From positions 27,550 to 91,549 of the forward strand of contig BCKL01000001.1 of the NCBI GenBank assembly GCA_001600635.1: a DNA stretch of 64,000 nt. The letters run 5' to 3'. The first letter of the stretch is position 1. The number at the start of each line of letters is the position of its first letter. The notes beneath the pieces were generated by a model that saw nothing but the letters and a program-made list of their open reading frames with translations, searched no databases and was not told the DNA's origin. Source of the DNA: Leucosporidium creatinivorum (lineage: Eukaryota; Basidiomycota; Microbotryomycetes; Leucosporidiales; Leucosporidiaceae). Shown here piece after piece: positions 2,027-52,460 of the stretch. The translations under genes and the position numbers were made by a program.

Positions 2027-3157
2027 TTACTCGAGAGGTCGAGCACCCCGAGCCGAGAGGTCGAGCACCCCGAGCCGAGAGGTCGACTCTCGATTGATGA
2101 ACTCAAGGAGCTCCGCTAGATCCAGCTCCGCATCGGGGAGACGTAGAGTATGGATGGATGAAGGGAGCAACGGGATGTAGGGGATGTTGATGAGAGTGAG
2201 GGTGTGCAGCGAGGAAAGTTGAGCGAGCGCCGAGGCCAGTTCTTCGTCCTCGGGAAGGACGGGCCAGCGACCAGTTTCGGCCCTTAGCACGAGGGAGGTG
2301 TGGTTGGGGAAGTGAGGAAAGTAGTCGGCTAGCTCAGGATGTATGAGGAGAGAGGGAGGGATATCGAGATGTCGGAGAGAGAGAGTCGAGTTGCGAAGGC
2401 AGTCTGAGAAGAGGAAGGGACACACTTTGGGCACAGTGAAGGAGGTGAGGGAGGCTGTCGGGATGAGGGGCGTTTCTCTGGTTCGTCAAGGATTCCATCC
2501 GTAGTCACTGCCGAGGGTCAATCGGCGCAAATTGGGCAGGCGAAGGACCAGTTCGTCGAATCCCGAGCCCGCGTAGTCCATCTTGAGCTCCTCAATCTGG
2601 TCAAGCCATCTTGCGTAACAGGTCGCATACGCGACAGGCTCCAGACTGAAGAGAGGAGGGTAATCATAAACGCCTCGGATCTCGAGGCTCGTCACGCCGA
2701 GCGGAATGGCGAAGAGGGAGTCGATGTCGGCCTCCAGCAGCTCCGTTCCGGAGTCGGCGCGTTCAAGTCCCGTCTCGCTGGGATAGACCGAGAGGCGGAA
2801 CTTGTGCACCATTGCGGCTAGTCGAGGCGCCTCGGACAAGGTGCGGCGGAGGAGGGTGCAATTCGAGGCGGTGTGGAAAACCGGCTCGTCTTCCTCATCA
2901 GAGCCGTGGTCGTAGATGTCCGAGTAGACATTGACCTCGGGCGTGTGGTAGAGAAGTCGTTGGGCGAAAGGGAGGAGAGAGGACGAGAGGAGGCACAGGC
3001 GGGCGGCGAAGGGGGAGTCGAACTCGCCTCGAGAGCGTGTTGCATGCCGGAGGATGTCGAAAAGTAGCTCCAGAGGCAGTGATGGTAGCTCAGTGCTGTC
3101 CGGGGCAGCGGTTGGGGCGGAAGGCGTGAATGGCGCTGAGGAGTGTAGGGAGAGCAT
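2027..3157 (-). CDS. F-box/LRR-like protein A (one in-frame stop or 54-base intron)
   Basis: Starts at the ATG of MLSLHSSAPF and carries an F-box-like motif (LPSLPLELLFDIL, about residues 23-35) followed by leucine-rich segments (LPNLRRLTLG, LSLRHLDIP, LSSLHTLTLI). F-box proteins of this kind usually act as substrate adaptors in SCF ubiquitin ligases; the target is unknown. The frame is open from 3157 to 2027 except for one TGA at 2488-2486. A GT-AG segment at 2508-2455 (54 bases, with a CTTGAC branch-like site) spans the stop, and its removal keeps the frame, giving 358 residues. The segment aligns in length with coding sequence in paralogs B and D, so it may be an exon-derived intron or a nonsense mutation. 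The frame is also open upstream to 3406, so an earlier start is possible. The C-terminus lies in a tandem repeat and looks shortened. Confidence 0.65.
2035..2086. repeat. 22-bp tandem repeat at the 3' end of F-box gene A
   Basis: Two perfect 22-base units (2035-2056 and 2057-2078) are followed by 8 bases of a third. Because 22 is not a multiple of three, the array is read in shifting frames and encodes the last residues of gene A (…SARGARPLE, then stop). The paralogs keep about 30 further residues here, so the array probably replaced the original C-terminus. Confidence 0.85.
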
Positions 3158-3544
3158 GTCGGCGATGGCGGTGGGAGGAGGGGAGGGTCTTTGCGGCTGG
3201 AAGAGCGGAACCAGTCGGTTGAGATTCTTCCCGATGTACCGGCATAGGCTCACCACGAGGTTGTTGAGCAAGCAGAGACTCCGAAGCGAGCTTCCTCTGC
3301 GCCGATATCGCCGAACGGAGCTGCAAAATGGGAGATGAGTGTCAGCAGGATACTCGAATGTACATCGAGCTACATGCTTGCACTGCTGCGATTTCGAGCG
3401 TTCCATCGATCTCCCTACAGCCCTCAGAACGGGGCCAACGCGTTCCGCCTCGTCATTCTCGCGTTTGCCGATCTTTCTATAGCTGCGAGCAGTCTATAGC
3501 GGAGAGAAAGCTCACCTCAGCTTGCTGAAGTCGTCGCTGTCGTG
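3158..3544. other. 5' region of gene A
   Basis: The gene A frame stays open on the minus strand up to 3406, so part of this may be 5' coding or leader sequence. No other gene is seen. It separates gene A from the dispersed repeat. Confidence 0.4.
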
Positions 3545-3835
3545 CTTCGCAGCTTCGTCTTAGTCCCCAGAGCCCGTGTCCAGCGATTCCAGCGGGGGCG
3601 ACGAGAGCGGTCGGAAGCTGAGTGAGAGCTGGTCCGGCGGTAATGCTTAGTAGAGCACGTCCAAGTCCTTCTGTAGTGTCGTATCCTGTAGGCGATTCGA
3701 AGTAGCCGAGACGAGCCAAAGATGTAGTCAGAGCTCAACCAGCGAATCGCTTCGACTTGGCCTTTCTTGCTCCTTCCGCTACCTCGTCGGGACTAGTCTC
3801 TCAGCTCCGAGATCGCCGAAAGTACTAGTAGGACT
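3545..3835 (-). repeat. Dispersed repeat, copy 1, between F-box genes A and B
   Basis: Read on the minus strand from 3835, this begins GTCCTACTAGTAC and aligns for nearly 300 bases with 52718-52990 (plus strand) and, less fully, with 39845-39560 (minus strand). The best-kept core is cgaagcgattcgctggttga, present in all three. I estimate roughly three quarters identity between copies 1 and 2. I see no tRNA-like A or B box, terminal inverted repeats or coding domain, although part of the repeat is open in one frame in both copies. Family unknown. Confidence 0.8.
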
Positions 3836-4175
3836 ATCTTGTCCTGCTGAGCTGTACTATACTACCCGCCTCGCCTTCAAAGCTCGCCGGCAAGCTCATT
3901 CGACGGGCGTCGCAGTCCGTGCGCGGTTCGTGGACTCGTACTCGACTTTTTCTCGCCTTCGAAGGTGACATGCATCCCTTTTACTCGGCTTGCGGAGCAG
4001 TGCGCTCACCCAGGCTCTCGCCGGCAGCTTTACTTCCCCTGTGCGCGAGCTCGGCGCTCTGCTTCAAGTTTGGACAGCTCTAAACCACCTCCTGGGTTAG
4101 TACAGCTCGCGACTGTACCGACAGATACTCTGAACTGACCTATTCCCACTACAGTACCGCCTTATACCCGCCAAC
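3836..4175. other. Upstream region of F-box gene B
   Basis: About 340 bases between the dispersed repeat and the start of gene B. The last part (ctgacctattcccactacag, 4135-4154) looks like an intron 3' end, so gene B may have a 5' leader intron. Nothing else recognised. Confidence 0.4.
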
Positions 4176-5375
4176 ATGCTCTCCTCCCTCCCCAATGAGC
4201 TCCTAAACGACATCCTCCTTCAAACCCCTCCCAGCGCCCTCGCCCTCCTCTGCCGCACCTCCAAAACCATCCTCCCAGTCGCCCGGCTCTATCTATATCG
4301 CCATGTAACCGTCACTCTGCGCGAGGACATGTCGGAAGCCTACGAATACGCCCCGGAGGAAGAAGACCATGTCTCGGTCACGAGCGCCGACTGCTGGCTA
4401 TACAACGCCGACGATGCTCTGTGTCGCTGCCTCCGTCGGTACACTCGGATATCGGACCTCGTCGAGACCATCACCATCCGGGCGGAATCGGAGCACGCCG
4501 CCCCGGAGGACATGCTGCCGCCCATCGTCAAGCACCTCCTCCGAAGCTGTCGCAACGCCACGGCGTTCCGCATGCCCTCGGCATTTCACTTCGCTTTTAC
4601 CTACAACATGGAGAAGGTCGCACTGTCAGCAAGCGATGGACTGGGCCCCCAATCGAAGCTGGAAACGGTCACCCTCCCCTACTCCGGCGGCGCATGCATG
4701 CGTTTCCTTCAGCTCCTTCCCGCCCTCCGTTCCCTCACCCTTGCTGATCATTGCGGAGATGAGCCTTCCACCAAGCTGAGGGTGGGTCCCCACTTCCCAT
4801 TTCGCCTTGAGGTCCTTCGCTTGAAATCTCCCGACCTCCATCCGAACGACCTCTTCGCCATGCTCAAGAGCTCGCTCCAATCGCTACATACGCTCGAGCT
4901 CCCTGTTCAGAATGAACGCCACTCCGACCTCTGCCCGCGACTCTCCCAGTTCACCGCCCTCACCTCCCTCCGCGTCCAGCTGGAGGGCTTCCAAGCTTCG
5001 GCGACCATCCTCCCCATCATTTTCCGCAATGTTGGTGCAGGCAGCCCTCATCTCCGGCATGTACACCTCTCTCATTCCTTCCAAGAATACTTTGATTACT
5101 GCTCCGGCGAGGACTCGGATAAGGCGACTTACCTCGACTCGACGCTCCTTCAACAACTCCCCATTTCCCTCCAATCTCTTCGCCTGAGCATCGTGCCAGT
5201 CATGCCTTCGGATCTGGCGGCTTTTATCGCTTCTGGACGGTGCCCCAATCTATACACGATTACGTTCGGCGGACCCATGGGCGGACTATGGTCGGAGAAG
5301 GATTGGACGGCGGCGTTGGAGACGGCTCGGAAGGCAGGTGTGGTGCTGGAGAAGGATAGGTGGAGATGGGAGTGA
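4176..5375 (+). CDS. F-box/LRR-like protein B, intact
   Basis: An intronless 399-residue frame. An F-box-like motif is right at the start (LPNELLNDILLQ, residues 5-16), followed by the CRTSKTILPVARLYLYRHV stretch that all five paralogs in the window share in some form (LCLxSxxLLPxxxxxLY), then leucine-rich segments (LPALRSLTLAD, LQSLHTLEL, FTALTSLRVQL, LPISLQSLRLS) and a C-terminal part ending in GVVLEKDRWRWE. Probable SCF-type adaptor (inference from the family). This copy is uninterrupted and, with gene D, is the best reference for the parts that are broken in A, C and E. Confidence 0.8.
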   Translation: MLSSLPNELLNDILLQTPPSALALLCRTSKTILPVARLYLYRHVTVTLREDMSEAYEYAPEEEDHVSVTSADCWLYNADDALCRCLRRYTRISDLVETITIRAESEHAAPEDMLPPIVKHLLRSCRNATAFRMPSAFHFAFTYNMEKVALSASDGLGPQSKLETVTLPYSGGACMRFLQLLPALRSLTLADHCGDEPSTKLRVGPHFPFRLEVLRLKSPDLHPNDLFAMLKSSLQSLHTLELPVQNERHSDLCPRLSQFTALTSLRVQLEGFQASATILPIIFRNVGAGSPHLRHVHLSHSFQEYFDYCSGEDSDKATYLDSTLLQQLPISLQSLRLSIVPVMPSDLAAFIASGRCPNLYTITFGGPMGGLWSEKDWTAALETARKAGVVLEKDRWRWE

Positions 5376-5646
5376 AGGGAGAGAACTGTAAATAGAGCTA
5401 TCATCTCACTCAACGCTCGCGGGAGCAGCAAAGCGCGGTGTTCAACTTCTCGGCGCGAGTCTGATGGCCGAGTTCGCCCTTCGCTCTGCGCTTTTGAGGT
5501 TTCGCTACTCGGAGGCTCCTCAAGGAGACGATAGCAGGAGCCACCCTATCCATTAAGCAACTGACGAGCTAAGTTCATCAATATGAAACGCCCTATTAAG
5601 CCTCAGCTTACTCTTCCTTCTTCCTCGGCGCCGAGCCAGACGACTC
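5376..5646. other. Convergent 3' region between gene B and the fasciclin gene
   Basis: Short spacer holding the 3' ends of two genes that point towards each other; nothing recognised. Confidence 0.4.
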
Positions 5647-7753
5647 TCAGGCCATAAGAGGAGCGAGCCTCGAGCGCCTGATCCTCCTGGTGGGGATCGC
5701 AGATCCGACCTCGCTAGTGAGGGAGCTGAAAATGCCGCTAGCCGTGGAGACGAGCGAGGAGACGGTGCCGGTCGAGGTCTCGGAGGCGAGCGAGGAAGTG
5801 AGGGAGCTCTCCGTGGTGGTACTGGGGAGGGATGAGGTGGCGACGACGGCAGTGGTGACGTATCCGATGACGCTGGAGGTCGAGGGAACCGAGGGGACTC
5901 TATTCGAGGAGGCGAGAGGCAGCGCCGAGATTCAGCGCCGAGCGACGGAGCGGGGAGGAGGAGCTGAAAGATTGAGACTCACCCACTGACATCACCAGCC
6001 GTGTTGAAGAGAACGGTGTCGATCACGTGCACCACGCCGTTGCTGTGAGTAAGCAGGAGAAGGTCAGCTTTCGCCCTTCAAGTGAGAGGGGAGCAGGGAC
6101 GGCGGCCACTCACGAAACGATAATGTTCTCGCGCACCACGCGAGCAGTAGTGCCATTCGAGACGACGAAGCGTCCTTCCAAGAGGGGGAATGGAGGGGAG
6201 GAGCGGAGAGCGATGATCAGCTCTTGTCGCCGAACTCCTCGCAAGAGAAAGAGAGAGGCTCACCAGTGCTGTTGTTGATGAAGCTGAGCTTTTGACCCGA
6301 AGCGGAGGTGGTAGAAGCTCCCTCGGTGAGATTGGTAGTGTAGAGCTGTAGAGGGTGAGGAGAAGGAGAGTCAGCTCGGCGCTCACTCGTCCACTGCTCC
6401 GAGTCCAAGAGACTCGGTAGATATGAGAGCTCACCACGGTACCAGGCTGCACAAAGTGATTAGCGACGACGTTGACGACCTCAGCGCGAGTGTGGTTGGT
6501 AAGTTCTCCCGAAGAGAGGGCAAGGGTGATGGCCTCGTTGGTCGGCGCAAAGAGAGTGATGCCGGTCGAGTTGACGAGGGTCGAAAGCTCGGAGGGCTGA
6601 GCGTTTTCAAAAGCAGTGAGGTTGACCTCGGGAGTAGGAACGCCGAGGACAGTGGAGAGCGAAGGCGGCCGGCTGCGAGTTGGAGTGGGAGAGCGAGGTC
6701 AGCGATCGCCGAGCTCAGGAGGGAAGCGAAAGGTAGCGACTCACATCAGCACGGAGTCGATGCGACGGACAACGAGATTCTCGTAGGGGAATGAGGAGAT
6801 GGTAGTCGTGTTGACGAGGTCGCGCTGGACGACAAACTGCTCGGAAGGAGGAGAAGTCGGGAGAAGGACGAAGACTTGAGCCGCCGAGTTGGCTGTAGAT
6901 CAGTGGAGGGGAGGGGCGAAAAGTGTCGAAGAGGTGAAGGAACAGTGTGAGAGGTGGAGAAGATCAGCTTCTGTCTTTCTGACCCCTCGCCGAGCACCCT
7001 CTCCTGCTCGGCTCGGTTCAAACTCACGAAGCTGAACCCAGCGAGGATCGGTCAACTCGGTCTCTACGATGCTAGGCTCCTCCTCAAACATTCCAGCGGG
7101 ATCGAGGGGACGAGGGACGATGTGGTAGCTTAGGAGAGCGTTCAGAGTCGCCGGATCGGTCGAGTCGATGGTGAAGCCGAGCGAAGAGGCGGTCGAAGCG
7201 AGCGAGTTGAGGGCCTGTGGGCCAGTGGAGACGGTGTTAGTCGACCGGTCGCCTCATGACCGCTCACTCAGTATATACCGCGTCCGAGGGAGCGAACACT
7301 GTACATCGCCGAGCGCCGAAAGCAGAGGTCAGCTCAGCTCTCGCTCGGCGATCGCTTCCCAGCAACGATGAAGAGACCTACAAGTCTTGTTGGCACCCTG
7401 AAGTAGTCCAGAAATAGTACCACTCGAGTTGCCGACGATACCAGCGAGCACGGTGAAGCTGTTGGAGCAGGCCGAGGAGTGTCAGGTCGCCTCGCTCGCT
7501 CGGCGTCGGCTCCGCAGACTCACTTGTTGGCGTGCAAAGCTGCGATGAGACCAGTGGCGTAGTCGTCTCCTCCACCAGTTGAGTTGGGCGAGCTACTCGT
7601 AGGCACGGGGGCCGGCAAAGCGGTGATCGAAGAGGTCGCCGAGCTCCAGTTCTCGGCGGTCGACCCCGAGGAAGAGTGGTTGTTCCTCCAGTGTTGAGGC
7701 TGGGCCAGGGTGAGAGCGCTGTAGGCGAGTAGAGCGATCAACGAGGCGAGCAT
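5647..7753 (-). CDS. Secreted protein with two fasciclin (FAS1) domains
   Basis: Ten exons join cleanly into 451 residues. Approximate exons on the minus strand: 7753-7524, 7458-7382, 7298-7279, 7214-7028, 6892-6745, 6672-6435, 6345-6264, 6174-6114, 6042-5983, 5899-5647. A signal peptide (LASLIALLAYSALTLA) is followed by FAS1 domain 1 (FTVLAGIVG, LFAPSDAALNSL, LLSYHIVP, RRIDSVL) and FAS1 domain 2 (STLVNSTGITLFAPTNEA, VVANHFVQPGTV, NGVVHVIDTVLF), then a Ser/Thr-rich stalk. FAS1 proteins act in adhesion or at the cell wall. The predicted tail ends in basic residues (TRRIRRSRLAPLMA) rather than the hydrophobic run expected for a GPI anchor, so the anchor is either absent or my last exon is wrong. 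One exon is only 20 bases long. Confidence 0.85.
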
Positions 7754-8047
7754 CTTGTGACGAGACGACGAGGCAAAGATGTGGGAGGAAGGAGAGAGGC
7801 GGAAGTCGACTTTCGACTTGCTCGAGCTCGCCGAGGCGAGGTTGCTCGAACCGAGAGCAAGCCGCTCCCAAGTCAAGTAGCAGACACTGGTGACCTGCAG
7901 AAAAGCGTTTCTTCACTCTTCTGCTCTCCACGGCCACCCGATCTCACAAGCTGAGCTCGCCGAGAAGCAAGACGGCTCGGTCGTGCTAGAAAGTGATGAC
8001 AAACTACAACAAGGCTACTGTTACACCTCACTTACTACAGCTCCATC

Positions 8048-10132
8048 TCACTCCTCCATCGCCTCACCTCCCATCTCATCCTCGGCGCCTCCCTCATCCA
8101 TCCTCAAGCCCCTCGGCGGGACGGGTGGCGCAGGCGGAGGCATCGCTGATCCTTCGAGGGCGACCTTGCCTTTCCTTGCTGGTCCTGCGGTCGTCGGCGT
8201 TGACGTGGTGGCCTTCCTCCGTTTCTTGGCGCCTGCCGAAGCAGCGAGAGCGGCAGAAGCGAGGGCGCCGGGGGACGGGCCCGCGGCGTTGGAGGAGGGC
8301 GTGAGGCGAGAGTTGGCGGAAGCGGTGATGCGTGGTCGAGGTGTGGTAGTGGTGATGGGTCGTTCTCGCTCGCCCCAGTCGGTCGCCGCGCCGTTGAGCA
8401 ACGCCGAGCTCGCAGAGATGGCGGCTGCCCTCTTCTCCCGCCCTCCCGACATGGCCGGCACCGCTCCCCAAACCCCCGCTCCATCACCCTCCCGATCCCT
8501 ATCCCCGTCATACCACTCCCCATTCGCCTTATGCCCATCCTCCCTTCCCTCAGCGCCCCCTTCTCCCTCCTCGGCTTCCTCCTCCTCGAGCATCCAAGGC
8601 GCCAAGCCCGGCGGGATCTCGACCATCCCGACGCTCGGCGCGCCGTGCATGTAGCGCAGCCTCTCCAGTACGCCCACTCGGATCCTCTCCAGTCCCTTGC
8701 GTGTGTTGAGATTTTCCACGCGATTGCGACCCGCGGCGAGGTCCGGATGTAGCTTCCAGTCGGGCGCGAAGAAGTCGTCGTAGGCGGTGTGAGGGAGCGA
8801 GCTCGGTAGCGATTGGTGCAAGTCGAGAAGGACGGCCGTCTCGTAGGTCCAGCAGCGCGAGACGTTCTTGATGGTGTATCCTCCTCCGCCGACGACGAGG
8901 AGAGGAAGGCCGAACGACTTGATGAAGCGAACGCACTCGCCATGCGCCGCGATGGAGAGGTTGAAGCACCCGAGGCGATCGCAGCCGAGCGAGTCGGCGC
9001 CGCACTGGAGGACGATGGACGAGGGTTGGAAGGTGGCGATGGTGGGCTCCATGATGCTCTTGAAGAGGGCGACGTAGGACTCGTTGTCGATGCCGTCTTG
9101 GAGGGGGATGTTGAGGCTGAAGTACTTGCCCAGCGAGTGGCCGACCTCGTCGATGTGTCCTGTACCAGGGAAAAAATCCGCTGAGTACTTGTGGAAACTC
9201 ACCGACATGACCCTGTTGGAGTTGTAGAAGGCCTCTTGTACCCCATCGCCATGATGAATGTCGATGTCGATGTAGAGTACTCGAGCGTGGACCCTGTAGG
9301 CAAGCGAAGGATCAGCGGTCGATCACAGAGGTCAAGGAAGCTCATCAACATACCTCAACAACTCCAAGATGGCCAACACGATGTCGTTGATGTAGCAGAA
9401 GCCGCTCGCCTCGGCCTTCTTGGCATGATGCAGCCCTCCCGTCCAGTTGATGGCGATATCGGTAGTTCCAGCGACGAGCTTCCTGGCGGCCATGAGCGAG
9501 GCACCGGCGTACTGTCGACAGTAGTCCCACATGTCGCTGAAGATGGGGCAGTCGTCGCCGACGTTAAAGGAGGAGAGGACCGAGGTGAAAGAACGGACGT
9601 TCTCGGGGGTGACTCTGCAGGTGGCGAGGGAGAGGAGGAGTTAGATTTGACTTAGGAGAAGGATTCGAGCCGTCGCAGATGGCTTCAAAGCGATGCCCTG
9701 CTGCCTCGCGTCTGCGCCGAGCGGCCTGATCTTGAGTCGAGATCCAAAGCTCACCGTTGCAGGAAGTCGATGTAGTCCTCGTCGTGGAACGCTTCCAGCT
9801 CCTCCTTGGTCGCCGCTCGAGGGTTGTACATGTCCATCTTCTTGTGCAGGCCGTAGCCGACGACGAGGTGGTTGGTGAGGGTCAGGCGATGAGGCTTCAT
9901 CGGGTGTCGTTCCTGTTGTGCGTGATCATCGAGAGTGAGAGGAGTAGATGTAGGTGTCGCGATGGAAGTCGAGGAAGGGTGAGAAAGGGCGAAGGTTGAG
10001 GGGACGAGAGCAGAAGGAGAAGGATGCGGGTGGGAGGTCAGCGGAGAAGCTCTATGCTGCGAGGAAAGGTCTACATACCCCAAAGTGGTACTCTCCGACG
10101 CCTTTTGGGAAGTAGTAGGATACTCGTGGCAT
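8048..10132 (-). CDS. HOS2: Class I histone deacetylase, HOS2/HDAC3 type
   Basis: Four exons (10132-10079, 9912-9755, 9614-9354, 9293-8048) give 572 residues. The N-terminus ([17 protein letters not shown], then [20 protein letters not shown]) and the motifs [46 protein letters not shown] and the C-side [13 protein letters not shown] match HDAC3/Hos2 rather than Rpd3. The zinc ligands and catalytic His residues expected for the family are visible ([19 protein letters not shown]). It should remove acetyl groups from histones as part of a Set3C/SMRT-type corepressor complex (family knowledge). The protein is longer than the usual 430-450 residues because of a low-complexity acidic and Pro/Ala/Thr-rich C-terminal tail of about 150 residues. 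A scrap of its last exon is copied at 1-95. Confidence 0.92.
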
Positions 10133-10552
10133 CGAATGGATCTGCGAAGAGGAGAGTTGAGGAGGAGCGGTCAGCGCCGGAATGTGGCTGAGGGCAGGCG
10201 CTCGGTCGCAGTAATTCGCGGACAGAGCTGATCACTCGTTCTACATCATTCGACCCAGCACAGCTGCTCTCTGCGCCGAGCCGTATGAGTGAGAAAGACG
10301 CGTCTGCCTCGGTGCTTCGGCTTGGCCCCGGCCGCCCTTTGGGGACGTAATTGGTCTCCGCACGGTAGACCTTGCTCGGTTTGCACGTCAAGCGTACATG
10401 AGCTGAAGGTTGCAGCCTCTGCATCGCCGAAGCAGGCGAGCGGCCGCAACTCCCCCGCTCACCGAGCGTGCTGTCCTGCTGCTTCGAGTGAGCAACAGCA
10501 AGACTAGCGTACCCAGTAAAACGCTGTTGTACAAGAGCAAGAAGACCGCACC
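10133..10552. promoter_or_regulatory. Upstream region of the histone deacetylase
   Basis: About 420 bases between the HDAC start and the end of the possible small gene. Only short overlapping open frames are present, with no recognisable motif beyond scattered CG-rich words. Confidence 0.35.
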
Positions 10553-10829
10553 TCATCGCGCAGCTCCCGACGCTTCAAGCGCCGCGAGCAAGTCACGAGT
10601 GAGCGCCTCCGCCGTCCTCTCCTTCTAACGCCATACAGCGTCCACCGCACCACCAGCTGTACCGCACCATCGTACTCACCCCAACGCCTCCTCCGCCTGT
10701 AGCATTGCCCCCCCTCCAAGCCTCCCCCTCCATCTCGCTCCCACTCTCAAAGCTAGCTCCTCCTAATGATCCCGAGCGGTCGAAGAAGAAGGGTGTAGAG
10801 GAGAATGTTGGGTTCAATAGAGCTGACAT
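10553..10829 (-). CDS. Possible small two-exon protein, 73 residues
   Basis: ATG at 10829 opens MSALLNPTFSSTPFFFDRSG; exon 1 ends at 10680 before a good GTGAGT donor, and after a 55-base intron exon 2 (10624-10553) continues in frame with KERTAEALTRDLLAALEA and a stop. The clean phase-0 join and the helical, charged C-terminal end favour a real gene. I recognise no family, and the donor/acceptor pair could be chance. There is no signal peptide or CAAX motif. Confidence 0.4.
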
Positions 10830-25742: not shown

Positions 25743-27028
25743 CTAGAAACCACTCCGCACCGTAAGCATGATCCCCTTCTTCTCACATGCCTCGGCGAGG
25801 GCTTGCCTCGGTTCCGCCTCCGTCGTGATAGGCCAGATGACATACAGCTTCTTGAGCTTGAGATCGTCGGTCTTGCTGATCCACTCCTGGATGTTTGTCT
25901 CCTTGACATGCACATTTACCTCGAGGTCGATGATGGAGCGAGGAAGAGAGGGGAAGAAGGAAGGGGGATGAGGGTTCTTGGGGTGCATCGAAAGTCGGAG
26001 GGTTGACATCGTGCAGGAGGCGAGTGCGGTAGAGAGTCGCTGATAATGGTCCTCCTCTGATTCACGGGTGTTGTCGTAGTCGTTGGCGTTGATGGTGAGG
26101 AGGCGCAGGTTGCTGAGGCGACGGAGGAGGGCTTTCGCCGAGGGGAGTGTGAGGAGGGTGGAGGAGATGTGGAGCTCTTGTAGGGTAGACGTCGAGCTGG
26201 AGAGTGCCGACTCAAAGATACGAGCGAAGATGAGGTGGTTGCGGGAGTAGCCTTACTGGAGGCGGAGGTAGGTGAGAGGGGAAGGGAGCGGCGCCGAGGT
26301 GTCCCAATCCTCGACCATGGACTCCTCAGTATCGCGGATGCTGAGATCCAGCTTCTTCATCATCGACGACTTGGTGAGAAGCTTCCAGCACTCCTCCGAG
26401 TAGTGCGCGCTGAGCTCCTCCAGCTGCCTGCCCGCGTCGGCGAAGACCTTGAGCACCGACTCGGCGGCGTGTGACTTGTCTCCACCGTCCTCTTGGAAGG
26501 AGAGTCGGACTATCCCTGGGCAGCGAGAGAGAACATCTCCCACCGCGATGGCGACGTACGAGTAGTCGGCTTGCGCGTCGTCCAGCCAGTCGAGCTCAAT
26601 GATAAGCTCGCGAACCTGTCGACCGAGGTGCGGCTGCTCATGAACGACGCTTCGGAAGGGCTTGTCGTTGGTGACGAGGATGGCGGGGTCGTCTTCTTGA
26701 TCCCTTTCCTCCGCTTCTCCGTTCTCGTCGAGTGGCAGCCCGTACCGGCCGAACCGAAGCGTGACCGAGCGGAAGAGGACTTGCTGGCCGAAGGGGAGGA
26801 GCGTCTTGGACACTAGGCAGAGGACGCGGGCGCTGTAGGTCTTGGGTGTTCTCCACGTTTGGAACGCTCACTCGACGGCTTCCTCCAGGATCTTGTTGAG
26901 GATCTCGGGAGGGATTCGGTCCTCGAGGATGGAGAGGGTGGTTTCAGAGGTGGACCTGACGGCGGGGATTGGGAGAAGTGGACGGAAGGATCTATGCAGA
27001 GAAATATTTATGTCAGTCTTCGATCTGA
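25743..27028 (-). CDS. F-box/LRR-like protein E (5' end unresolved; one in-frame stop or 60-base intron)
   Basis: An upstream exon with the F-box-like motif (RIPPEILNKILEEAV) is joined by a GTGAGC...CTACAG intron to LCLVSKTLLPFGQQVLF, the same signature as paralogs A and C. LRR-like segments follow and the frame ends at 25743 after EKKGIMLTVRSGF. One TAA lies at 26255-26253, after LTYLRLQ; the same frame is open on both sides. A GTAAGG...CTCCAG segment of exactly 60 bases spans it and could be spliced out in frame, though its sequence aligns with coding sequence in B and D. No ATG occurs in the first exon I can define; an intron-like end at about 27028 (ctgacat...catag) points to an upstream exon I could not place. 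Confidence 0.55.
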
Positions 27029-35190: not shown

Positions 35191-37715
35191 TCACGCCACA
35201 GACTTGTTCTCCACCGAGTCGATCCACACCTCCGTCCCTTTGACCTTTGGCTCAATCTCCTGATCCCCGAACACCTGGTTCATCTGCTCGAGCGTAAGGC
35301 GAGAGGTCCTGCGAAAGGTGCAATTAGCTCGATTGAGAGAGCTGCAGGGAATTAGGGAAGCCGAAAGGACGCACTCCGGGAAGAGGAAAATGTAGCACAG
35401 CGCGGCGACAACATCTGCAGCCACAAAGACGTAAAAGAACTGCGTCCGGAAAGTCAGTTCGGCTTCAGCTCGGCGAAGGGTACTCGGGCGAAGGGTTCGG
35501 AGGCTCACCTTGAAGCCGATGGCGGTCAGAGCGATAGGAGAAATCTGAGCGACAACGATACCAGCGATGTTATTGTTGGCGACGGAGATGGAGGTGCCCT
35601 TGGCTCTGCGAGGTGGGAAGAGAGGTTAGCAAGTTATTGCCGGAGCGCCAACGACGCCCGACCGACGCTCTGCAGCTACAGTGTGGTCCAAGTAAGCCTG
35701 GGGACGCTCACCTGATGTTATAGGGCATCATCTCGGCGGGGATGAGCCAGGCCAGCATTCTGCAGCGTGCCAAGAATCAGCCATCGCTCTTCACTACCAG
35801 CATCCTATAGAACTAACTCACCCGATGCAGGTAAAGCCTAAGTTGAACAGATAGAAGCACGCCACCTGGGCCCTCAATCCGTTCAAGGGAACCTCGGTTC
35901 TGCCCAAGTAAACCTGGGAGAGTACGGCCTGAATGAGGAGGGCCGCTCCGGCGAGGAGAGACGAGAAGATGAGGGCGGGTCGACGGCCGAGCTTGTCGAT
36001 TATCGCGACCCAGAAGAGCGTGAAGATCTACAGCAGGGGGTCCAACGGTCGTCAGCGGCGAGCATCATTGGGAAGAGGCGAGCCTTGCGGGGTAGGGGAA
36101 AGAGGAGGGTGAGAGTGTGAAGAGACGAAAAGAGTGCTCCTCACCAGACCGAAGGCGCCGTAGAGAAGGTTCAGGGCGAGGGAGGTTTTGACGCCGAAGC
36201 CGAGCAGGCCGAAGATGGTCGAGGCGTAGTATTGGATGCAGTTGATGCCGGTGAGCCTGTGGTGGAGCGTCAATGTTCAATGGAGAGGGTTGAAGACGAG
36301 GGGGGATGGACGAGAAGTGTCAGCAACGTCTCGGAGCAAGGCCGAGCCCGCGCCGAGCATCGACCGAACTCGTCGAGAGAAGCAGGAGCAGACAACTCAC
36401 TGGGCAAGCCATTGGAGGAGACAAGAGAGGAAGACACGCTTGCGGTAGGACTTGCGAGTCCAGATCTCCTTCCACGACGGCTCCTGGTGATGCTTCTCGG
36501 CCTCGAGCTGCGCCTTAATCTCGACAAACTCGGCTTGGACGAAATCTGAGCCGCCTTGCGAGCGATGAAGGCGGTTGAGTACCTTTATCGCTTGCTCCTC
36601 GCGGCCCTTTCACACCTGATGATGGAAGAGAGGTCAGCTCGGAGAAGCCAGGCCGAAAGGCAGCGATGCTCACCAGCCAGCGAGGGGATTCGGGGAGGAA
36701 GAATGTGACGGCGACGAGCAAGAGGACTGGTAGCATTTGTAGAGCGAGTGGTGCGCGCCTGTTGAAGATCGAGACGAGTGAGAGAGGTCAGCTTCGGCTC
36801 TTCCTGCGCGCCGAAAGGGCTCGGGCAAGGATCGACAGTCGGACCGCTCACCACTGGATGTCGCCCGTGTAGTGAGTACCGAAGGCGTATCCGATACCCG
36901 TAGCTAGGAAGATTGCCGTCTCGATTCCAACCTGTAGAGCAAGAAGACGTCAGCGGAAGCCCGTCGGGACTCGAGCGAATTCCGAGTGAGCGCCGAGCGA
37001 CTACGCCCTCGTGCTCGATGCGTCTCTGATGAGAAGGCAGGTAGATAGAACTCACCATTTGAAGGCCACCAAGAGCACCACGGATGCTTGCAGGCGCAAG
37101 TTCACTGGCGTAGACGGGCAGGACTGCCGTCAATTGCCCAGCACCGAGTCCCGTTATGAGACGCCCCCCAATCAGCATGGCGACGTTGACTGCTCCCGCT
37201 TGAAGAGCGCAGCCGAGGATGACAACGAGACCGCCCGTGAAGAAGCCTTGGATTCGGCCGAAGCGGTCGGCGATGAAGGCGCATCCGAACGCGCCGACGG
37301 TGGCGCCCGCTGAGAAGGATGAGACGATGCCTGCGGAAGCAGATGTAGGCGAGTCAGATTCAGAATAGCCTATAGCATTAGCCACAGCAGAGAGAGAGAC
37401 GGACCTCCAATCTGAGCCGGTGTTGGAGAGTTGAAGTAGGCTTGGAAGGAGGGTTGAACCAGCGTGGACGAGATCATGCCGACATCCAGGCCTAGAGAGT
37501 AGAGCACGTCAGTCCGAGCCATACTGAGCTACAGAAGCCCCGAGCCATATCGCCCGACAGCGAAGGGCGAAGACGTACCAAGTGAGAGGGCTGACGAGAA
37601 GAAGGGGGAAGAGGGGGTCAGTGCCCATTTCTCGAAGTCCGAACTAGTAGCCGAGCAACTCACCTGAAAGAGCTGCAGCAGCGACGCAGCCAAAGGCAGC
37701 GTAGGAGAAGCCCAT
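35191..37715 (-). CDS. MFS sugar transporter
   Basis: Begins MGFSYAAFGCVAAAAL (37715) and ends EVWIDSVENKSVA (35191), spliced from about a dozen exons. Sugar-porter signatures are present in order: the ADRFGRIQGFFTG loop after TM2, LITGLGAGQLTAVLPVY, the PESPRWL motif at the end of TM6, LTGINCIQYYA in TM7, IIDKLGRRPAL between TM8 and TM9, and AEMMPYNIRAKG after TM10. Twelve hydrophobic segments can be counted. It should sit in the plasma membrane and import a sugar or related polyol with protons; the likeness to Lac12-type permeases is an impression only. It is divergent from the cyclase-family gene across about 300 bases. Confidence 0.88.
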
Positions 37716-41124: not shown

Positions 41125-41477
41125 GTTCGGTCGGTCGCTGAGAGGTGGGGGTCGGTGGGAAAGCTGCTCGGCAAGTTCGTCTCTCTCCTTCGTCTCGAAT
41201 TTCGCCGCTGACCTCGTCCGGCTTCTCCAGCGGCGTGCTCGCTCCTTATGCCGGTCTCCGCTCGTGGCTGCTGTCCTGCATGGTCACGCTGGCGGCGCCG
41301 CTCCCGACTTGCTTCTGGAGCCGTGATCGGAGGCGGCTCTCCCGCTTCGACCAACGGCGAAGGAGACGGCGGTGCCGCTTCTTGAGATATCCTACAACAA
41401 CCCGCCTGACGCCAACCCGACGGCTGCAAGGCTTCTCTCGCTCCACTTCTCCCACCCGACTCCCCACCTCAGCATCA
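41125..41477. promoter_or_regulatory. Shared divergent promoter, SnoaL-like and SDR genes
   Basis: 353 bases between two outward-facing starts. GC-rich with a pyrimidine-rich run before the SDR start; no known site recognised. Confidence 0.5.
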
Positions 41478-44641: not shown

Positions 44642-45055
44642 TATTCCTTCTCACTCTGTAGATGTTCGCTGTTCATAGACTCTGTTGGTCCAGCTCGAAG
44701 CGAGAGGAGCGGGCTCGGCGAAGCCAGTTTGCAGTCGGTCGTCCAGTCTGCTCCGTCCGAGCGCCGGCAAGGTGTCCCTTACCTTATCAGAGAGCGAGAT
44801 CTGTGCCGTCTACGTCTCTACCACCCTGCAGACCCTCGTCGCCAGCACCTCTCCCGCCAAAACCTCGCCTTTCGCTCTCTTGCTCCGACCGCTTCCTTGT
44901 CTTTCGCTCTTCGCCTGGCCTCGCTTCTTCGACTACAAAAGCTCGCTCGCTCGCTCCCAGACGCGCTCTACTACTCAGAGCCAGAGTTCTGCACGTCGCC
45001 GCTCGTTGAACAGCACGCCTCGCTTCGAGACGCCCGAGTCGAACTTCAACGAGTC
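44642..45055. promoter_or_regulatory. 5' region of the PER1 gene
   Basis: About 410 bases, the later part pyrimidine-rich. The PER1 frame stays open upstream, but the coding start is better placed at 45056 (see that gene). No other gene seen. Confidence 0.4.
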
Positions 45056-46249
45056 ATGTACGTCGCTGCAACACGTCTAGCAGCTCGAGAAGTGAGCTCT
45101 ACTGACGCTCTGGCGCTCTACAGGAGATCGTTCGCCCTGGCGCCGCTACCGCTGCTGGTTCTCGTCCTCAGCGCGCTCCCCGCCGCCCAAGCCTCCGTCG
45201 GCGACCGCTCCCCGGCCTATCAACGCTGCCTAACGACCTGCAGCTCCGCCTGTCCCTCTGCCCCTCCTTCCAAGCTCGCCCTCTGGCCTTGCGCGCACGA
45301 ATGCCGCTACACCTGCCTCACTTTCCTCACCGACCTCGCGCTCGGCTCCTCCGAGCTGGACCATGCGCTACAAGGCCAGGGAGGCGCTTTGGAAGGTCTA
45401 CCGATAGGCAGGATGGTCCAGTTTAACGGCAAATGGCCGTTCCATCGCATGGCGAGCGTGCAGGAGCCGCTGTCGGTCTTGTTCTCGCTCGCCAACTTGT
45501 GGGCGCATTGGCGGGGGTGGAGGGATTTGGGAAAGATGGGGAGTGGTGCAGAAGGACTGCGGAAGGCGTACAGGATCTACGCGCTCTCGGGAATCAACAC
45601 CTGGATCTGGTCGAGCGTATTCCACACCCGAGACGTCGACTGGACGGAGAAGGCCGACTACTTTAGTGCAGCAGGGGGGATGCTCTGCGGACTATGGATC
45701 GCAGGAGTACGGCTGGGAGGGCTGTACGGCTCGACAGGCGCAGGGAACGGCCGTCGAGGACCTCGCTCGGCGATTCGGCGGGGATGGGCCCTCCTTTGCT
45801 CGACCATCTTCGTCGCCCATTGCGTCTACCTCGCCTCGGGAGATCGGTTCGACTATGGCTACAACATGCGCTTCAACGTCACCATCGCCCTCGCCCAAAT
45901 CCTCCTCTGGGCCGCCTGGTCAGCCTACCACCAATTCGTCCTCTCCAAACCCTCCCCCTTCATCTCTGTACACTCTTCCACATCCACCAAAGCGACTCGC
46001 GCCCCCCATTCTCATCTACCTCTCCTCCCTCTCCTCCTCCTGCCTGCCCTCACCGCGCTGGAACTCCTCGACTTTGCGCCGATCGGACCATTCGGCCTCA
46101 GAATGCTCGATGCCCATGCGCTGTGGCATTTGAGTACCGTCGCGGTAGTGAGGATGTGGTATGGGTTCTTGGAGAAGGATCTGAGATGGGTGGAAGGGCA
46201 TAGTGTGGGGTTAGAAGAGGTGGAGGGCGGCAGGAGCAGGGTCGAGTGA
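45056..46249 (+). CDS. PER1: PER1/PGAP3 GPI-anchor remodelling protein
   Basis: Family motifs are complete: cysteine-rich lumenal domain (CLTTCSSACPSAPPS, CAHECRYTCL), FNGKWPFHRMASVQEPLSVL, WIWSSVFHTRDVDWTEKAD and the C-terminal DAHALWHLSTV. PER1 is an ER membrane hydrolase (CREST superfamily) that removes the sn-2 acyl chain from GPI anchors. The start is odd. A GTACGT...CTACAG intron of 66 bases (45058-45123) begins right after AT; splicing creates ATG-AGA and a perfect signal peptide (RSFALAPLPLLVLVLSALPA). If the intron stays in, the same ATG reads MYVAATRLAAREVSSTDALA and continues in frame, because 66 bases is 22 codons without a stop. Spliced length is 375 residues, close to yeast Per1 (357). 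Confidence 0.9.
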   Translation: MYVAATRLAAREVSSTDALALYRRSFALAPLPLLVLVLSALPAAQASVGDRSPAYQRCLTTCSSACPSAPPSKLALWPCAHECRYTCLTFLTDLALGSSELDHALQGQGGALEGLPIGRMVQFNGKWPFHRMASVQEPLSVLFSLANLWAHWRGWRDLGKMGSGAEGLRKAYRIYALSGINTWIWSSVFHTRDVDWTEKADYFSAAGGMLCGLWIAGVRLGGLYGSTGAGNGRRGPRSAIRRGWALLCSTIFVAHCVYLASGDRFDYGYNMRFNVTIALAQILLWAAWSAYHQFVLSKPSPFISVHSSTSTKATRAPHSHLPLLPLLLLPALTALELLDFAPIGPFGLRMLDAHALWHLSTVAVVRMWYGFLEKDLRWVEGHSVGLEEVEGGRSRVE

Positions 46250-46593
46250 TCGCCGAGATCTGGAGAGGGTGAGTCGGGCTGTAATGCTTCGGGTCTAGTA
46301 CGCTCAGCTGACGCTTCGTGTGTTAGCAGATGGCCCTTTGCCCCTCTTCTAGACTCAGCGCGCTACTTACGCCGCGCAAACAGCGAACATTGGCTGCTCG
46401 GCGCCGAGAGTGGAGGGCTTGGAGAGGACTCTGGAGGGTGGGAGGGCATAGCATTACACACGAGCCTGTGCAAAGTCATCTTAGAACCCACAACATTGAA
46501 AATTGACCCCTCTGCACCTTCACGAGATCAGCGCGAAGTTGCGCTCGCACGCTGCTTTCGCTCTGACTTTCTCCTCGTCTGCACCTCACCAGC
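46250..46593. promoter_or_regulatory. Upstream region of the JmjC gene
   Basis: About 340 bases between PER1 and the JmjC gene, both plus strand. No gene seen. Confidence 0.4.
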
Positions 46594-48222
46594 ATGAGCT
46601 CCGTCAGCGCCGAAGCAGACGAATCTCGCGGCATACCACTCCTCACACCAGCACAGTGCACCTACAGCTACTTCCGACAACATCATCTTCTACCAAACGC
46701 GCCTGTCCTCCTTCCTCCTTCTCTCGTCGCCGACTGGCCCGCATGCCATTGGCGCAGCGCCGAGGATGACTCTACAACAACGCAGCTACCCCTCTCTGCT
46801 TTCTGCGACCTCAAGCTCGAGGAGAGCGGAGCTTACTGGCCTTTGCCTGGCGCGGTGGACGAGGACGGCGCTCTGGACACGCTGGGCGATCTGTTCGATG
46901 CGTGGCAGCAGGGGAGGGCTAAAAAGGTGTATTTGAAGGATTGGCATCTACCGCTATGGCTGGCGAATCGCGGAGACGGCGAGGAGAGCGTCAGGAAGGA
47001 GCTGTACGAGCTGCCGATGATGTGGAGGGATGACTGGATGAACGAGTATTACGGTGCAGAGACGAAAGACGATTTCCGGTTTGTGGTGAGTCGCTCGCAG
47101 GTTCCAGGTGCCATTCCGAAGCGCCGAGCTGACCTCTCTTCGTCCTTCGCAGTACGCTGGCGGGAGCGAGACCTGCACTCCACTACACCGAGACGTGTGT
47201 ACGTTGTCTCGTCACTTCATCTACCCCGACCGAGCCTCTGACCCCGTCTCCGCGACCACAGACTGCTCCTACTCAATCTCGACAAACCTCTTCGGCGCCA
47301 AGCTTTGGCACCTCTTCCCGCCGATTTGCACACCCCATCTGCTGCCGCTGATCGCTCAAGCTGAAAGAGAAGGGGGTTCGGTTGATGTGAGGGAGTGGGA
47401 CGAAGTTCGGTTGGCAGAGATGAAGGAGCTGGGAATGAGGGTCGTCAGGCAGGAGCAGGGCGAGAGTATCTTCAGTGAGTCGCGTCTCGTGGTCGCTACG
47501 ACGCTCCTCATAGCTTTTGAGGGCGTGTACCTCAATTGCTGACCTTCGCTATCTCCCATAGTCCCCTCCGGCTACTATCACCAAGTCACCAACCTCTCGC
47601 AACCGACTCTCTCCCTCAACCACAACTGGTGCAACTCGCACAACCTTCCGACGATGTACTCGTCCATGTGCGATGAGGTCGCTCGCTGTCGGGAAGCTAT
47701 CGACGATGTGAGGGAGCTGTTGATGAGGAAGGCTCGACAGGAGGGCGAGGAGGCGGGGGATTGGAGGGTGGAGTGGGAGGAATGCGTTGCTGAGTTGGTG
47801 AAGCAGAGTGCAGGTTGGGAGTGAGTGCTTGCTCGCGGATTACGTATGGCCGTGGACGTCGTGCTGACGACTTTCGGCGTTCGCAGCTGGACGACGTTCT
47901 GGCGGATGATCCGACACGCCCTCAGATCGCTGGTCGAGCTCTCTCCACAGAGCCACGCCGTACGCTGGCCATCTGTTCCCTCCTCAGCACGTCCACCGCC
48001 GGCATTTGTGGTCGAGCAGGTGAGTCTTCTCTCGGCGGCCGTTCTCGTCGAGCTTTCAGGTCGATCGAGACTGACCCCTCGCCGCTCATACAGGTCCGCC
48101 CGCTACTCGTAGCGTTTCTTGTACGAGAAGAGGAGGAGTACAGGCTCACAGCAGGGCTTGGCGAGGTGCTGGAGGACGTAGCGCGATTACTCTCGGCGCT
48201 GGAAGCAGGGCATGGCCAGTAG
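46594..48222 (+). CDS. JmjC-domain oxygenase, JMJD4 type
   Basis: From MSSVSAEADESRGIPLLTP, exons give the JmjC core: VYLKDWHLPLW, LPMMWRDDWMNEYY, the iron ligands HxD in YAGGSETCTPLHRDV, then SISTNLFGAKLWHLFPP, and VPSGYYHQVTNLSQPTLSLN with HNWCN, where the distal His sits in YYHQV. The VPSGxxHQVxNL...SINHNW pattern is that of JMJD4, which hydroxylates a lysine of the translation release factor eRF1 (family knowledge). Two C-terminal exons (WTTFWRMIRHALRSL and VRPLLVAFLVREEEEYR) complete the protein at 48222. At least six introns, all with CTGAC-type branch sites. Confidence 0.85.
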
Positions 48223-48542
48223 ATCGAGGCGGCTAGGAGTAATAGACGCTGTAGCTCATACACAACTACCTTCCATGTCGGCTAGGCTGCTTAAGGCCTT
48301 GCCGAATACCTAGTCGTTCAAGCTCGGCGCCGAAGCAAGGGGTTAAGAGAGTCAGCTGCAGTTCAGGCGTAGCAGAAGTGATCATCTGCCGCTGTCCGAG
48401 AAGTAAGACTCTGCTCTTCACTCCAATCAACGAGCTCGCCCCCACCATTCATCGGCCTGAGGTTGAGGCGGAGGCCCACGGCGCCGCTCTCGCTCTTGAT
48501 TCTCGCTCATATTCTTTCGGCTCGCCTCTACGACGCCACACC
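48223..48542. promoter_or_regulatory. Upstream region of the Zn2Cys6 factor
   Basis: About 320 bases between the JmjC stop and the next start. No gene seen. Confidence 0.4.
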
Positions 48543-51154
48543 ATGGACAGCATATCGACGAATCGTAATGCAAGCCCACCAACAGCCCGGCGGAGTGTCA
48601 GAGCTTGTCTAACATGCGTGAGTACGAATCGCGCCCACCCTCTCGCGTCGGGTTCCGAGCCGTCTCCGCGCAGAGCAAAGCAGAGGAGCTGACCCACATA
48701 CTACCACAGCGAAAAACCAAGAACCGCTGCTCCGGCGACGAGCCCAAGTGCGAGCGCTGTGTACGGCTGAACAAGGACTGCCATTATGATCGCCCGGATC
48801 CAGTAGTCACACCTGGCGCTCGACTACAGGAAGAGGTCGATACCTTACGAGTAGCCCTAGTGCATACTGTCGCCGCTTTACAAAAGCGAGGCCACCTGCC
48901 GTCGGAATTCTCGGCGTTCGCTGCTGAAGCGGCTCGCCATGTCTCCTTCGCCGAGCCTTCGACCTCAGCTGCCGGCGTGGATGGTTCTCACACGCTCGAT
49001 CAATCTCGGAAACGACCCCGAGGTGACTCGTCGGCCTCCCCAAGCGCTGGTGTCGGCACCGCTGCCTCGCCTCTGTCATCGCTTCAGTACCGAGCGCCAG
49101 ACTACCCTCTCAGTGTGTTTCTGTATCTACTCCAACCGCGTCTTGAGACTCTAGCTAACCCTGCCTCCCCTACACAGAGCCGTACCGCTTCCAACTCTAC
49201 GAGAGCCGAGCTGTAAGCCCCGTCGACGACGGACTTGATCTGCCCAACTCGGCGATGCAGAGCGAGTTCGAAGCCGTTCACGCCACGGAGGGGCCTTCGG
49301 ATCCGACAAGTACTCGTATGCGGCGTGAGCCTGCTCCACCACCTGCGTTCCGCAATGTGGTCGAGCTTCAGGTCGTCTCGGCGACGGAAGCGAGGGATCT
49401 CTTCAACTTGTGAGCTTCTCTTGACCTCTTCATACTTGATGCACGACTAAACGAGCTCTACCTAATAGCTACACGACCAACCTTCATCCCTTCTTCCCCA
49501 TCTTAGACCTGCACTCGGACACCTTCGATTCGCTCTCGGCCTGCTATCCCTGGACGCTCAACAGCTGTCTGTTCGTCGCATGTGCGTTACAACATAGCTT
49601 GATACGAATGAATGTTGACTTTGAGTCTACAGGTCGAGCGCAAGTTGGCTCCAACTCGCCTACGCCCCTGCTCGAGCGCCTGATGGACGAGGCGCAAGGA
49701 ATCGCTCAAGCCTCCCTCTTTGCCATCACCACTCAAACAGCCGATATCCAAGCCATGGCGATCCTCGCCGCCTTCTCCATCAACGCCATCCTTCCTGCTT
49801 CGCATGCCATGTCAATGGGGTGAGCGGTCGTGCGCCTCCGCCGATTCAACGATCGCCGAGCTGACTCGCCGTCTCGCTCTCAGAGTCGAGTTCCAGCTCC
49901 ATGTCGCTCTGAGCACACTCTCGCGCAGCTCAAGACAGCTCTCTTCCGAGGAGGAGATCGGAATCGCAACTGGCGCTCGAACTTGGCTCCATCTCATTGT
50001 CCTCCAGCATAGCTCAGGCCGAGGCAAGGGAAAGTCGCTCCGAGTCGTCGACAAGGACTCCGTCTGCCGCGAGCGCCTTCTCTGCCTCACACAGCATCCG
50101 ACCTCGAACGCTTTCGATATCGGAGTCGCCGCTCAAGTCGAGCTCATCACGCTCCAGGCTCACGCCGACGCGAGCCTCGCCATGCTCAACTCACTGCCGA
50201 GCTTTTCGAGGCAAGGTGCGGACATCATCAAGGGGTTCTGTCAGGATATACAGAGACTGTACGCCGTGTGGGATCTTCAACTCGGTGCGTTCTCTCGATC
50301 CCTCTACGCCTTCCTCGCTGACCCACCCTTCGCAGGCGCCCGCGCCTCGGACCCCTTCTTTCCCTTCGTCAGCCGCTGCATGGCTCGCACCTTCAAGCAA
50401 GCCGAGCTCGAGGTCATCGTCGGCGGTATCCGAGGCCGCTCCATCCGCCAAGCCCTCACCGACCTCACCTTCCGCGACCTCGTCGTTCAGGCTCGGACTT
50501 TGGCGCTGGAGAACATCGAGCTTCACTCGAGCAATGGAGTCGCTCTACACTGCATGACCCACTCAATGGTCCTGGAAGCCTCGTTCTGCGCGCTGCTGGT
50601 GCTCAAGGTGACGAAGGTGTTGCCGGAGGGGATCGAGTTGGCGAGGGTCGTTCGGGAGATTAGGTCGCTGAGTGAGGTGAGTGACGGTCCGAGCCGCTTT
50701 GAAAGATGGCGAGCTGATCTTGCTTTCTTATCATTCTTATCAGACGCTCTTTAGTACACCAGGAGGCGCGGTCTTCAGTCGCATCGTCGTGTGGGTCGAG
50801 CTTCGGCGCTCGACGCTTGCGATGCCTTCTCTGACCTTCTCCTCTCGGCATAGATCGGCTCTGAGCCAGTTCATACCATCCGATGACTTTCAATATTCGT
50901 TCCCATCAGCAGGAGCAGCCCCTGCAGGCCTGCAAGAGCTCCTCATTGCCTCTCAAGCACCGGGCAACGGCGCGCCGAGCATGCCAGATTGGCTTACGGT
51001 CGACAATCTCAAGTAAGTGGCTCTATAGCGCCTTTGTTGTTCGTTTTGCCAACTTCTCGGCGTCCACAGCTTCGATCTCGACTGGCCTCAACTCATGAAC
51101 GGAAGTCAGGATCTCGGCTGGGGCTCGGCGGTGCCGCCGAACTTCAGTTTCTGA
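48543..51154 (+). CDS. Zn2Cys6 fungal transcription factor
   Basis: ATG at 48543 (MDSISTNRNASPPTARR) leads to the zinc cluster, joined over an intron after the second cysteine: RACLTC then RKTKNRCSGDEPKCERC and VRLNKDC, the C-x2-C-x6-C-x5-C-x2-C-x6-C pattern. A linker and short heptad-like helix (LQEEVDTLRVALVHTVAALQ) follow. The middle is a fungal-specific transcription-factor domain (FYTTNLHPFFPILDLHSD, AMAILAAFSIN, NAFDIGVAAQVELI), and the protein ends NGSQDLGWGSAVPPNFSF. Such factors often control nearby metabolic genes; the SnoaL/SDR/dioxygenase set lies 4-10 kb upstream, so a link is possible but unproven. Confidence 0.88.
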
Positions 51155-51338
51155 AACCTATCGGTGCAACGAGCCACGGCAGCTCTTTCGCTGCTGCTAG
51201 TTTGCGCTCGTGAACCTTTCCTTCGCCCCCGAGAACGCGAGATGCGAGCACGGCTGGCGAGCGCCGAACTTGCTCTCGGACTCGCTTGTGTCGTCGCGCC
51301 ATTCTGCGACCCTGAAGCATCTAAATTACCTGAACACT

Positions 51339-52460
51339 CTACTTCGATCTCCAACTCTGAGCCCGTACATCCCACCAGACAGGCCTGATTCCCCGCTCCC
51401 TGCAAGCCTTAGCAACGGCCTTCCGCTTTTTCATCGTCCACTCCCCCTCCCAACTCTCGTCAAAATTGAGCACCTTCAATGCTGCTGGCGCTTGAAGAAC
51501 ATAGTCGAGGATGTAGGCGGCGCTGGAATGGCCGTCCGAGAGATCGAGGTGGGTGATGGAAGGAGGAAGGCGGAGGAGGAGGTCGAGAGTGAGGTCGACT
51601 TCGTCGTCGTCAATATCCTCGGTGAGGCGGAGGTGATGCAGAGATGGAAGTGCGTGGATGTAGGGAAGGAGAAGCTCCATATCCGAGTTGGCGTTCCAGT
51701 TGTTGAAGTTGATGCTGAGGTAGGTGAGCTCGGCGAACGAGGCGAGGCTGTGTGGAGTTGAGGCGAGCTGGGCCAGGTGCGTGTAGTGTAGGGTGAGGCG
51801 GCGGAGGGAAGACGCAGACGAGAGGAAGATGGAGGAGAACGAGGCGTGGTTGTCGCTTCATCCGTGGAGCTCCAGTGAGGTGAGAGCGAATGAGAATGGA
51901 CCGGCGAGACAATCGGCAGGGAGGCGCGGAGGAAGGCGCTGAATGATGAGAGTCTTAAGCCCGATGAGACGGGACAGTAGTGGTACGAGTCCCTGGCTGA
52001 AGACATGGATATCGAGCGTTTCCAGCTTCAAATCGAGGTCGGCCACGGCGCCGACGAGGATTGAATGCCCCATGGTGGACGCGGAGAGCCGTAGGCGATG
52101 GAGTTTGGAGCACGCCTGGAACAGCTGGCGGATGTTGTATGCGAGGAGTTGGGGATCTTGGCACGAGTCGAGGAAGAGGGAGAGCGTGCGGACGGGGATT
52201 GCGAGCCGAGGTTGGGTTTGAAGCGTGGCGAGAAGGGTCTTGCGAAATGAGACGCGGGCGCCCTTGATCTCCATATAGTCGTCCGAATGACCTTCATCCT
52301 CGTCGAGATCAATGGTTAGGTCGCGATATAGCGACGCCTGCGCGGTCACGGCCAGCGATTTCGAGAGGAGGCATAAGCCGGCCTTCTCATCGGCTTGGAC
52401 ATCCTCCATCGCGAAGTCGAGGATATCGTGTAGGAGTTCGAGGGGCAGCTTCGGCGGCAT
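51339..52460 (-). CDS. F-box/LRR-like protein C (single in-frame TGA)
   Basis: Begins MPPKLPLELLHDILDFAMED, with the F-box-like motif at residues 4-14 and the shared GLCLLSKSLAVTAQASLY stretch. LRR-like segments follow (LIGLKTLIIQRLPPRL, ALTSLELHG, SLRRLTLHY, LPSLHHLRLTED). The frame is open for 374 codons except for one TGA at 51860-51858, directly after LTSLELHG; the downstream part up to RAQSWRSK is in the same frame and keeps the repeats. I found no GT-AG pair that would remove the stop in frame. The position matches that of the stop in paralog E. It is either a recent nonsense mutation, an error, or read-through. Divergent from gene D with a repeat between. Confidence 0.6.

Follow-up and report, generated by a model that had tools for sequence, protein, structure and literature searches.

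We found that three interrupted F-box/LRR paralogs, here called A, C and E, are probably copies that were disabled recently, as pseudogenes or null alleles, through ordinary turnover in an expanded gene family. They lie, with the open paralogs B and D, in a stretch of 64,000 nucleotides (bases 27,550-91,549 of contig C1, hereafter the window) of a genome of 27.7 Mb in 63 contigs. An exon of the phenylalanine ammonia-lyase of this genome has PDB chains 1t6j and 1y2m, the Rhodosporidium toruloides enzyme, as its nearest matches (189 bits, against 97 for the one after), so that the fungus is probably a basidiomycete related to the red yeasts of Rhodotorula. Lesions in the family are scattered and differ between copies, A and E each carry a further one, and identity between copies comes in patchy tracts. 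From these comparisons we infer that A, C and E have lost their function, and that they did so recently.

Interrupted and open paralogs in the window

A, C and E are related to B and D in tblastn searches, and B and D are open throughout. The initial annotation had reported one internal stop in each of A, C and E, which we found at the positions given (Table 1), and coding sequence on both sides. The latter was borne out: the off-frame stop rate of 0.017-0.020 per triplet, taken from 31 paralogs then without a stop or detected frameshift, predicts about seven stops in about 390 codons, and the frames contain one or two. The further description, a single stop and no frameshift in each gene, applies to C only. 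E has another TGA in its F-box region, and A contains a frame-shifting tandem repeat, past which family-like C-terminal sequence resumes in a different frame, to about position 1930. Compared with their open relatives, A and E have two lesions each; for C a single lesion was counted.

Table 1. Positions of the F-box/LRR paralogs and of their lesions in the window
Feature	Position	Strand	Remark
A, interrupted F-box/LRR paralog (C1_29603)	1930..3157	-	start MLSLHSS at 3157
Stop in A	2486..2488	-	in-frame TGA
22-bp tandem repeat in A	2032..2086	-	2.5 copies, 100% match
B, open paralog	4176..5375	+	399 aa; divergent neighbour of A
E, interrupted F-box/LRR paralog	25743..26990	-	start codon provisional
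Second in-frame stop found in E	26868..26870	-	TGA in F-box region, earlier than the TAA
Stop in E	26253..26255	-	in-frame TAA
C, interrupted F-box/LRR paralog	51339..52460	-	
Stop in C	51858..51860	-	in-frame TGA
D, open paralog	53136..54593	+	485 aa; divergent neighbour of C

A and B, like C and D, form divergent pairs (gaps 3157-4176 and 52460-53136), and the upstream DNA of both pairs resembles that of other paralogs at about 72-90% identity over 144-480 nt, partly on the opposite strand. The head-to-head pair C/D (51339-54593) is duplicated as C1_143868/C1_145862 (C1:143868-146869) with nearly equal spacing. Three of these four copies are broken, each by a different lesion. C1_145862 has a TGA, and its nearest uninterrupted paralog is D (score 447). 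C1_143868, the sister of C, is stop-free at the position of C's stop and aligns there without a gap; it has single-base gaps that are absent from C, the nearest lying 17 nt past C's stop. Neighbouring genes in the window include a histone deacetylase domain (8048-9208, - strand), a sugar transporter (36585-37385, - strand) and a Per1-like protein (44729-46249, + strand).

Family identity

The assignment to F-box/LRR proteins held in Pfam, profile and fold comparisons. Among 24 aligned paralogs, PF12937 (F-box-like) was matched in seven at E <= 0.01 (best 3.7e-6) and Pfam LRR_14 in three; B on its own stayed below the PF12937 cut-off (17.7 versus 24.3 bits). A profile built from the 24 paralogs matched designed LRRs (2.7e-9) and TIR1 (4.7e-9). 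The AlphaFold model of B, built with D as the sole aligned sequence (mean pLDDT 71.5), has F-box helices followed by an LRR arc of alternating strands and helices. Its top three Foldseek matches were 4i6j_B (which we take to be FBXL3), COI1 and SKP2, with E-values of 4.8e-6 to 1.0e-5 and TM-scores of 0.26-0.50; NLRP3 and other LRR proteins followed at lower ranks. The predicted fold of B thus resembles FBXL3, SKP2, COI1 and TIR1 in its helices and arc, whereas its identity to them is 11-15%, with TM-scores of 0.21-0.51.

Across the whole genome at least 128 PF12937 matches were found in six frames. The PF12937 row in PMC10662464, as far as that row itself goes, reads 20, 34.6 and 13.1, which we take as that strain, then the mean and spread across other Rhodotorula genomes; its methods differ from a six-frame count.

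Stops and frameshifts across the family

We surveyed 54 paralogs, comprising 44 regions from searches with A and C, 8 added from listings, and B and E from the window; 10 further listed places lie outside this sample. Lesions were detected by tracing the frame through codon usage, by a C-terminal check and by frameshift-aware alignment to at most three nearest uninterrupted paralogs. This alignment was added because codon-usage tracing on its own had overlooked C-terminal frameshifts, as well as the second of the one-base gaps in C1_143868. Of the 31 genes first taken as uninterrupted, five are cut near the C-terminus (C1_181254, C1_152929, C1_486078, C1_301148 and C1_248416). A frameshift was accepted, at our own judgement, on codon usage, on a sister DNA alignment or on at least two of three paralogs; that of A was accepted on its tandem repeat alone, and the location of the frameshifts in C1_152929 disagrees between two alignments. 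Frame changes relative to just one of three paralogs, found in 12 genes, among which C shows one close to its start and D one close to its end, were left uncounted; if real, they would raise the number of frameshifts and reduce the excess of stops described below. A frame change near the start of B, seen against two of three paralogs, was also left uncounted, since the reading frame of B opens at the F-box with an ATG of its own; that near the start of C1_499667 entered the count.

The survey yielded 22 in-frame stops in 19 of the 54 paralogs, so that A, C and E, which the initial annotation had singled out, are not exceptional. There were 16 frameshifts in 14 genes; stops and frameshifts occurred together in five, and 28 carried at least one lesion. 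By hand tally, 12 genes carry one stop without a counted frameshift, and eight carry one frameshift without a stop. The two kinds of lesion co-occur at chance level (odds ratio 1.03), as frameshifts are present in 5 of 19 stop-bearing and 9 of 35 stop-free genes. Protein kinase and MFS searches, tried as controls for stop frequency, proved unsuitable since in-frame introns seem to place stops within the matches.

The ratio of stops to frameshifts, 22:16 (1.4), compares with about 0.3-0.4:1 predicted from flanking DNA. The flanks of paralog pairs held 16182 substitutions and 1490 indels not of length 3n, and the nonsense share of coding substitutions is 0.027-0.034. For 22:16 the binomial P is <0.0001 at an expected stop fraction of 0.26, 0.0002-0.02 at 0.29-0.40 and 0.10 at 0.46. 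This calibration draws on overlapping, non-independent pairs and only on matches of at least 60 aligned bases with <30% difference; in their coding parts we counted 108 indels not of length 3n and 4413 substitutions, so the flank indels may partly be alignment noise. Because the search reads through stops and not through frameshifts, it is biased towards an excess of stops. Among the 43 of 54 genes that can be found by the N-terminus alone, however, the ratio is still 19:13, and this bias alone is therefore insufficient. The excess could be accounted for by a lower rate of indels in coding sequence, by frameshifts that escaped detection and by the search bias. The argument of the initial annotation that no frameshift is needed does not hold for A or for 5 of the 19 stop-bearing paralogs. 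Its intuition retains some force in that stops are more frequent, relative to frameshifts, than neutral flanks would predict.

Selection on either side of the stops

Whole-gene dN/dS between paralogs was 0.36-0.56 (Nei-Gojobori, 13 pairs). On either side of the stops it was 0.27-0.57, and in 10 of 12 comparisons the value past the stop was the lower one. These include A (its sole comparison, with C1_9522: 0.54 before and 0.56 after); C and E are part of neither this set nor the outgroup tests. In outgroup tests, five of eight comparisons summed gave 172 amino-acid changes in stop-bearing copies versus 134 in their partners, some of which carry damage themselves, and 71 versus 67 synonymous changes; the amino-acid changes divide into 93 versus 71 before the stop and 79 versus 63 after it. 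This excess leans slightly to relaxed constraint, though it is not specific to the part after the stop. The overall pattern fits recent loss and would also be compatible with retained function.

Patchwork identity between copies

To describe similarity along the genes we compared ten paralogs (45 pairs) and used the 15 pairs formed by six with similar downstream flanks (C1_372576, C1_481960, C1_422888, C1_499667, C1_626973 and C1_329054). Mean divergence was 24% upstream, 27% at fourfold sites of the F-box, 55% at fourfold sites of the LRR and 24% downstream, and the LRR exceeded both flanks in 14 of the 15 pairs. The exception, C1_372576/C1_481960, was reversed, with 6% at LRR fourfold sites and 22-23% in the flanks. 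Tracts of 86-94% identity (at least 120 nt at >=86%) join different partners along different parts of a gene; C1_329054, for example, has different partners at about 90-93% for its F-box, LRR and downstream flank. Segmental exchange among copies is the simplest cause of this patchwork, and gene conversion is perhaps the route by which the patches arose. Between C1:181254-182288 and C1:227056-228078, which are 81% identical, dS was 0.15 before the stop and 0.45 after it, which suggests that the N-terminal part may have been homogenised more recently.

Alternative explanations

The initial annotation had offered regulated read-through, alternative splicing of the stop segment and recent nonsense events as explanations, and the last is the one that our data support. 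Programmed read-through at a specific site common to A, C and E is extremely improbable. The stops of C and E had been placed at the same aligned position; they fall in adjacent columns (235 and 234), which would suit such a site, but not in one codon, and that of A is at column 217. In an alignment covering 48 of the 54 paralogs the positions of the 22 stops are compatible with an even distribution (KS P = 0.14), clustering was not found (5 pairs within 3 columns against 4.3 at random, P = 0.41), and the last third holds just three of them. Moreover, B and D are stop-free, and the frame of E is already interrupted within the F-box region. Read-through of a more general regulated kind likewise gained no positive support, since the positions are scattered and all three stop codons occur (TAG 8, TGA 7 and TAA 5 among 20 internal stops). 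This mix fits that expected of one-step nonsense changes (TAG, TGA and TAA at about 0.50, 0.27 and 0.23); the terminal stops of the 31 genes then deemed uninterrupted were TGA in 19, TAG in 12 and TAA in none, and the stop of C1_227056 lies opposite a sense codon one base away in its 81% identical partner. The UGA-CUA context of fungal read-through, which yields peroxisomal isoforms in an account given in part of PMC4207609, likewise involves nuclear genes with coding sequence past the stop. Unlike in those genes, none of the four stops in the window has it (TGACGA in A, TGAAGC in C, TGAGCG and TAAGGC in E), and one stop in 20 has it, within a gene that bears four lesions. Sequencing or assembly error is very unlikely, as 19 of the 54 members would have to carry single-base errors, and these would have to show the codon mix that real mutation gives. 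That the stops lie within short introns or exitrons of length 3n is a little less credible still. By eye, GTAAGG...CAG encloses the second stop of E in reading order at a spacing of 60 nt, and GTGAGC...CAG encloses the first at 39 nt, the latter below the 42-nt floor of our test, and protein kinase matches in this genome often hold stops that we took as introns read through. However, both candidates lack the CT[AG]A[CT] branch motif. None of 20 stops lay in a frame-preserving GT[AG]NG...CT[AG]A[CT]...YAG stretch of 42-150 nt, compared with 0.004 of 3000 random codons; illustrative introns were selected with this same pattern and so do not validate it. Looser GT-AG candidates enclosed all 20 stops, yet also 0.928 of 3000 random codons. 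Furthermore, paralogs align as coding across the stops, as C does, ungapped there, with its sister. A-to-I RNA editing that removes stops is also exceedingly unlikely. Correction of premature stops is described for filamentous ascomycetes in PMC7306014, but a passage of the same review states that this type has not been reported in basidiomycetes. Editing would yield Trp, and none of 20 stops faced Trp in the first-listed paralog (two of the 20 lay opposite a gap); Trp does stand opposite the late stop of C1_248416.

A different possibility is that stops of any type and at any position are read through usefully in some cells, so that stop-bearing copies would be functional and frameshifted ones not. 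We regard this as distinctly unlikely, although several observations speak for it: the excess of stops relative to flanks, dN/dS that is alike on both sides of the stops, and the 12 genes with a single stop and no counted frameshift. The first two of these also count against the pseudogene reading, as retained function, too, would give a dN/dS without a rise past the stop; a further such point is that just three of the 22 stops lie in the last third of the alignment. A precedent exists in the insect receptor pseudo-pseudogenes of the Drosophila Ir75a type, which, in the portion of PMC5615767 that presents them, belong to a receptor family and carry a premature stop while the rest of the frame is intact. 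In contrast to that system, the fungal family has frameshifted siblings and second lesions, including those in A and E, and read-through is without positive support. Frameshifts are as frequent in stop-bearing as in stop-free genes, the stops have no common context, and amino-acid change is slightly higher in the stop-bearing copies. More broadly, it is unlikely that stop-bearing copies are alive, whether because nonsense is tolerated above frameshifts through a low level of useful read-through or because the copies form a silent store of LRR blocks. In the latter variant, LRR blocks would be copied into expressed genes between a homogenised module of promoter and F-box and the downstream flank.

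Discussion

Our preferred reading is that A, C and E are disabled copies in a family that would turn over through duplication, patchwork exchange and loss, with single-base nonsense changes and small indels probably striking copies independently. Such fast turnover would leave most broken copies with just one or two lesions and still coding-like on both sides, and the youth of exchanged blocks may help explain why broken copies look fresh. Judged by the predicted fold, the working copies would be putative substrate receptors of SCF ubiquitin ligases, in which the F-box would hold Skp1 and the LRR arc would select the target. The family recalls the F-box genes of nematodes, since an excerpt of PMC5041008 describes a large, clustered family in C. 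elegans with many pseudogenes; it differs in belonging to a fungus, in its LRR arm and in that 28 of 54 sampled copies are damaged.

These results mostly settle the suggestion of recoding, as the stops are part of a load that spans the family, with a disabling lesion in roughly one of every two copies sampled. Were the excess of nonsense over frameshifts real and functional, it would represent an equivalent, in a fungus, of the pseudo-pseudogenes. The combination of similar promoters and F-boxes with far more diverged LRRs is what would be expected of recognition genes that diversify by exchange.
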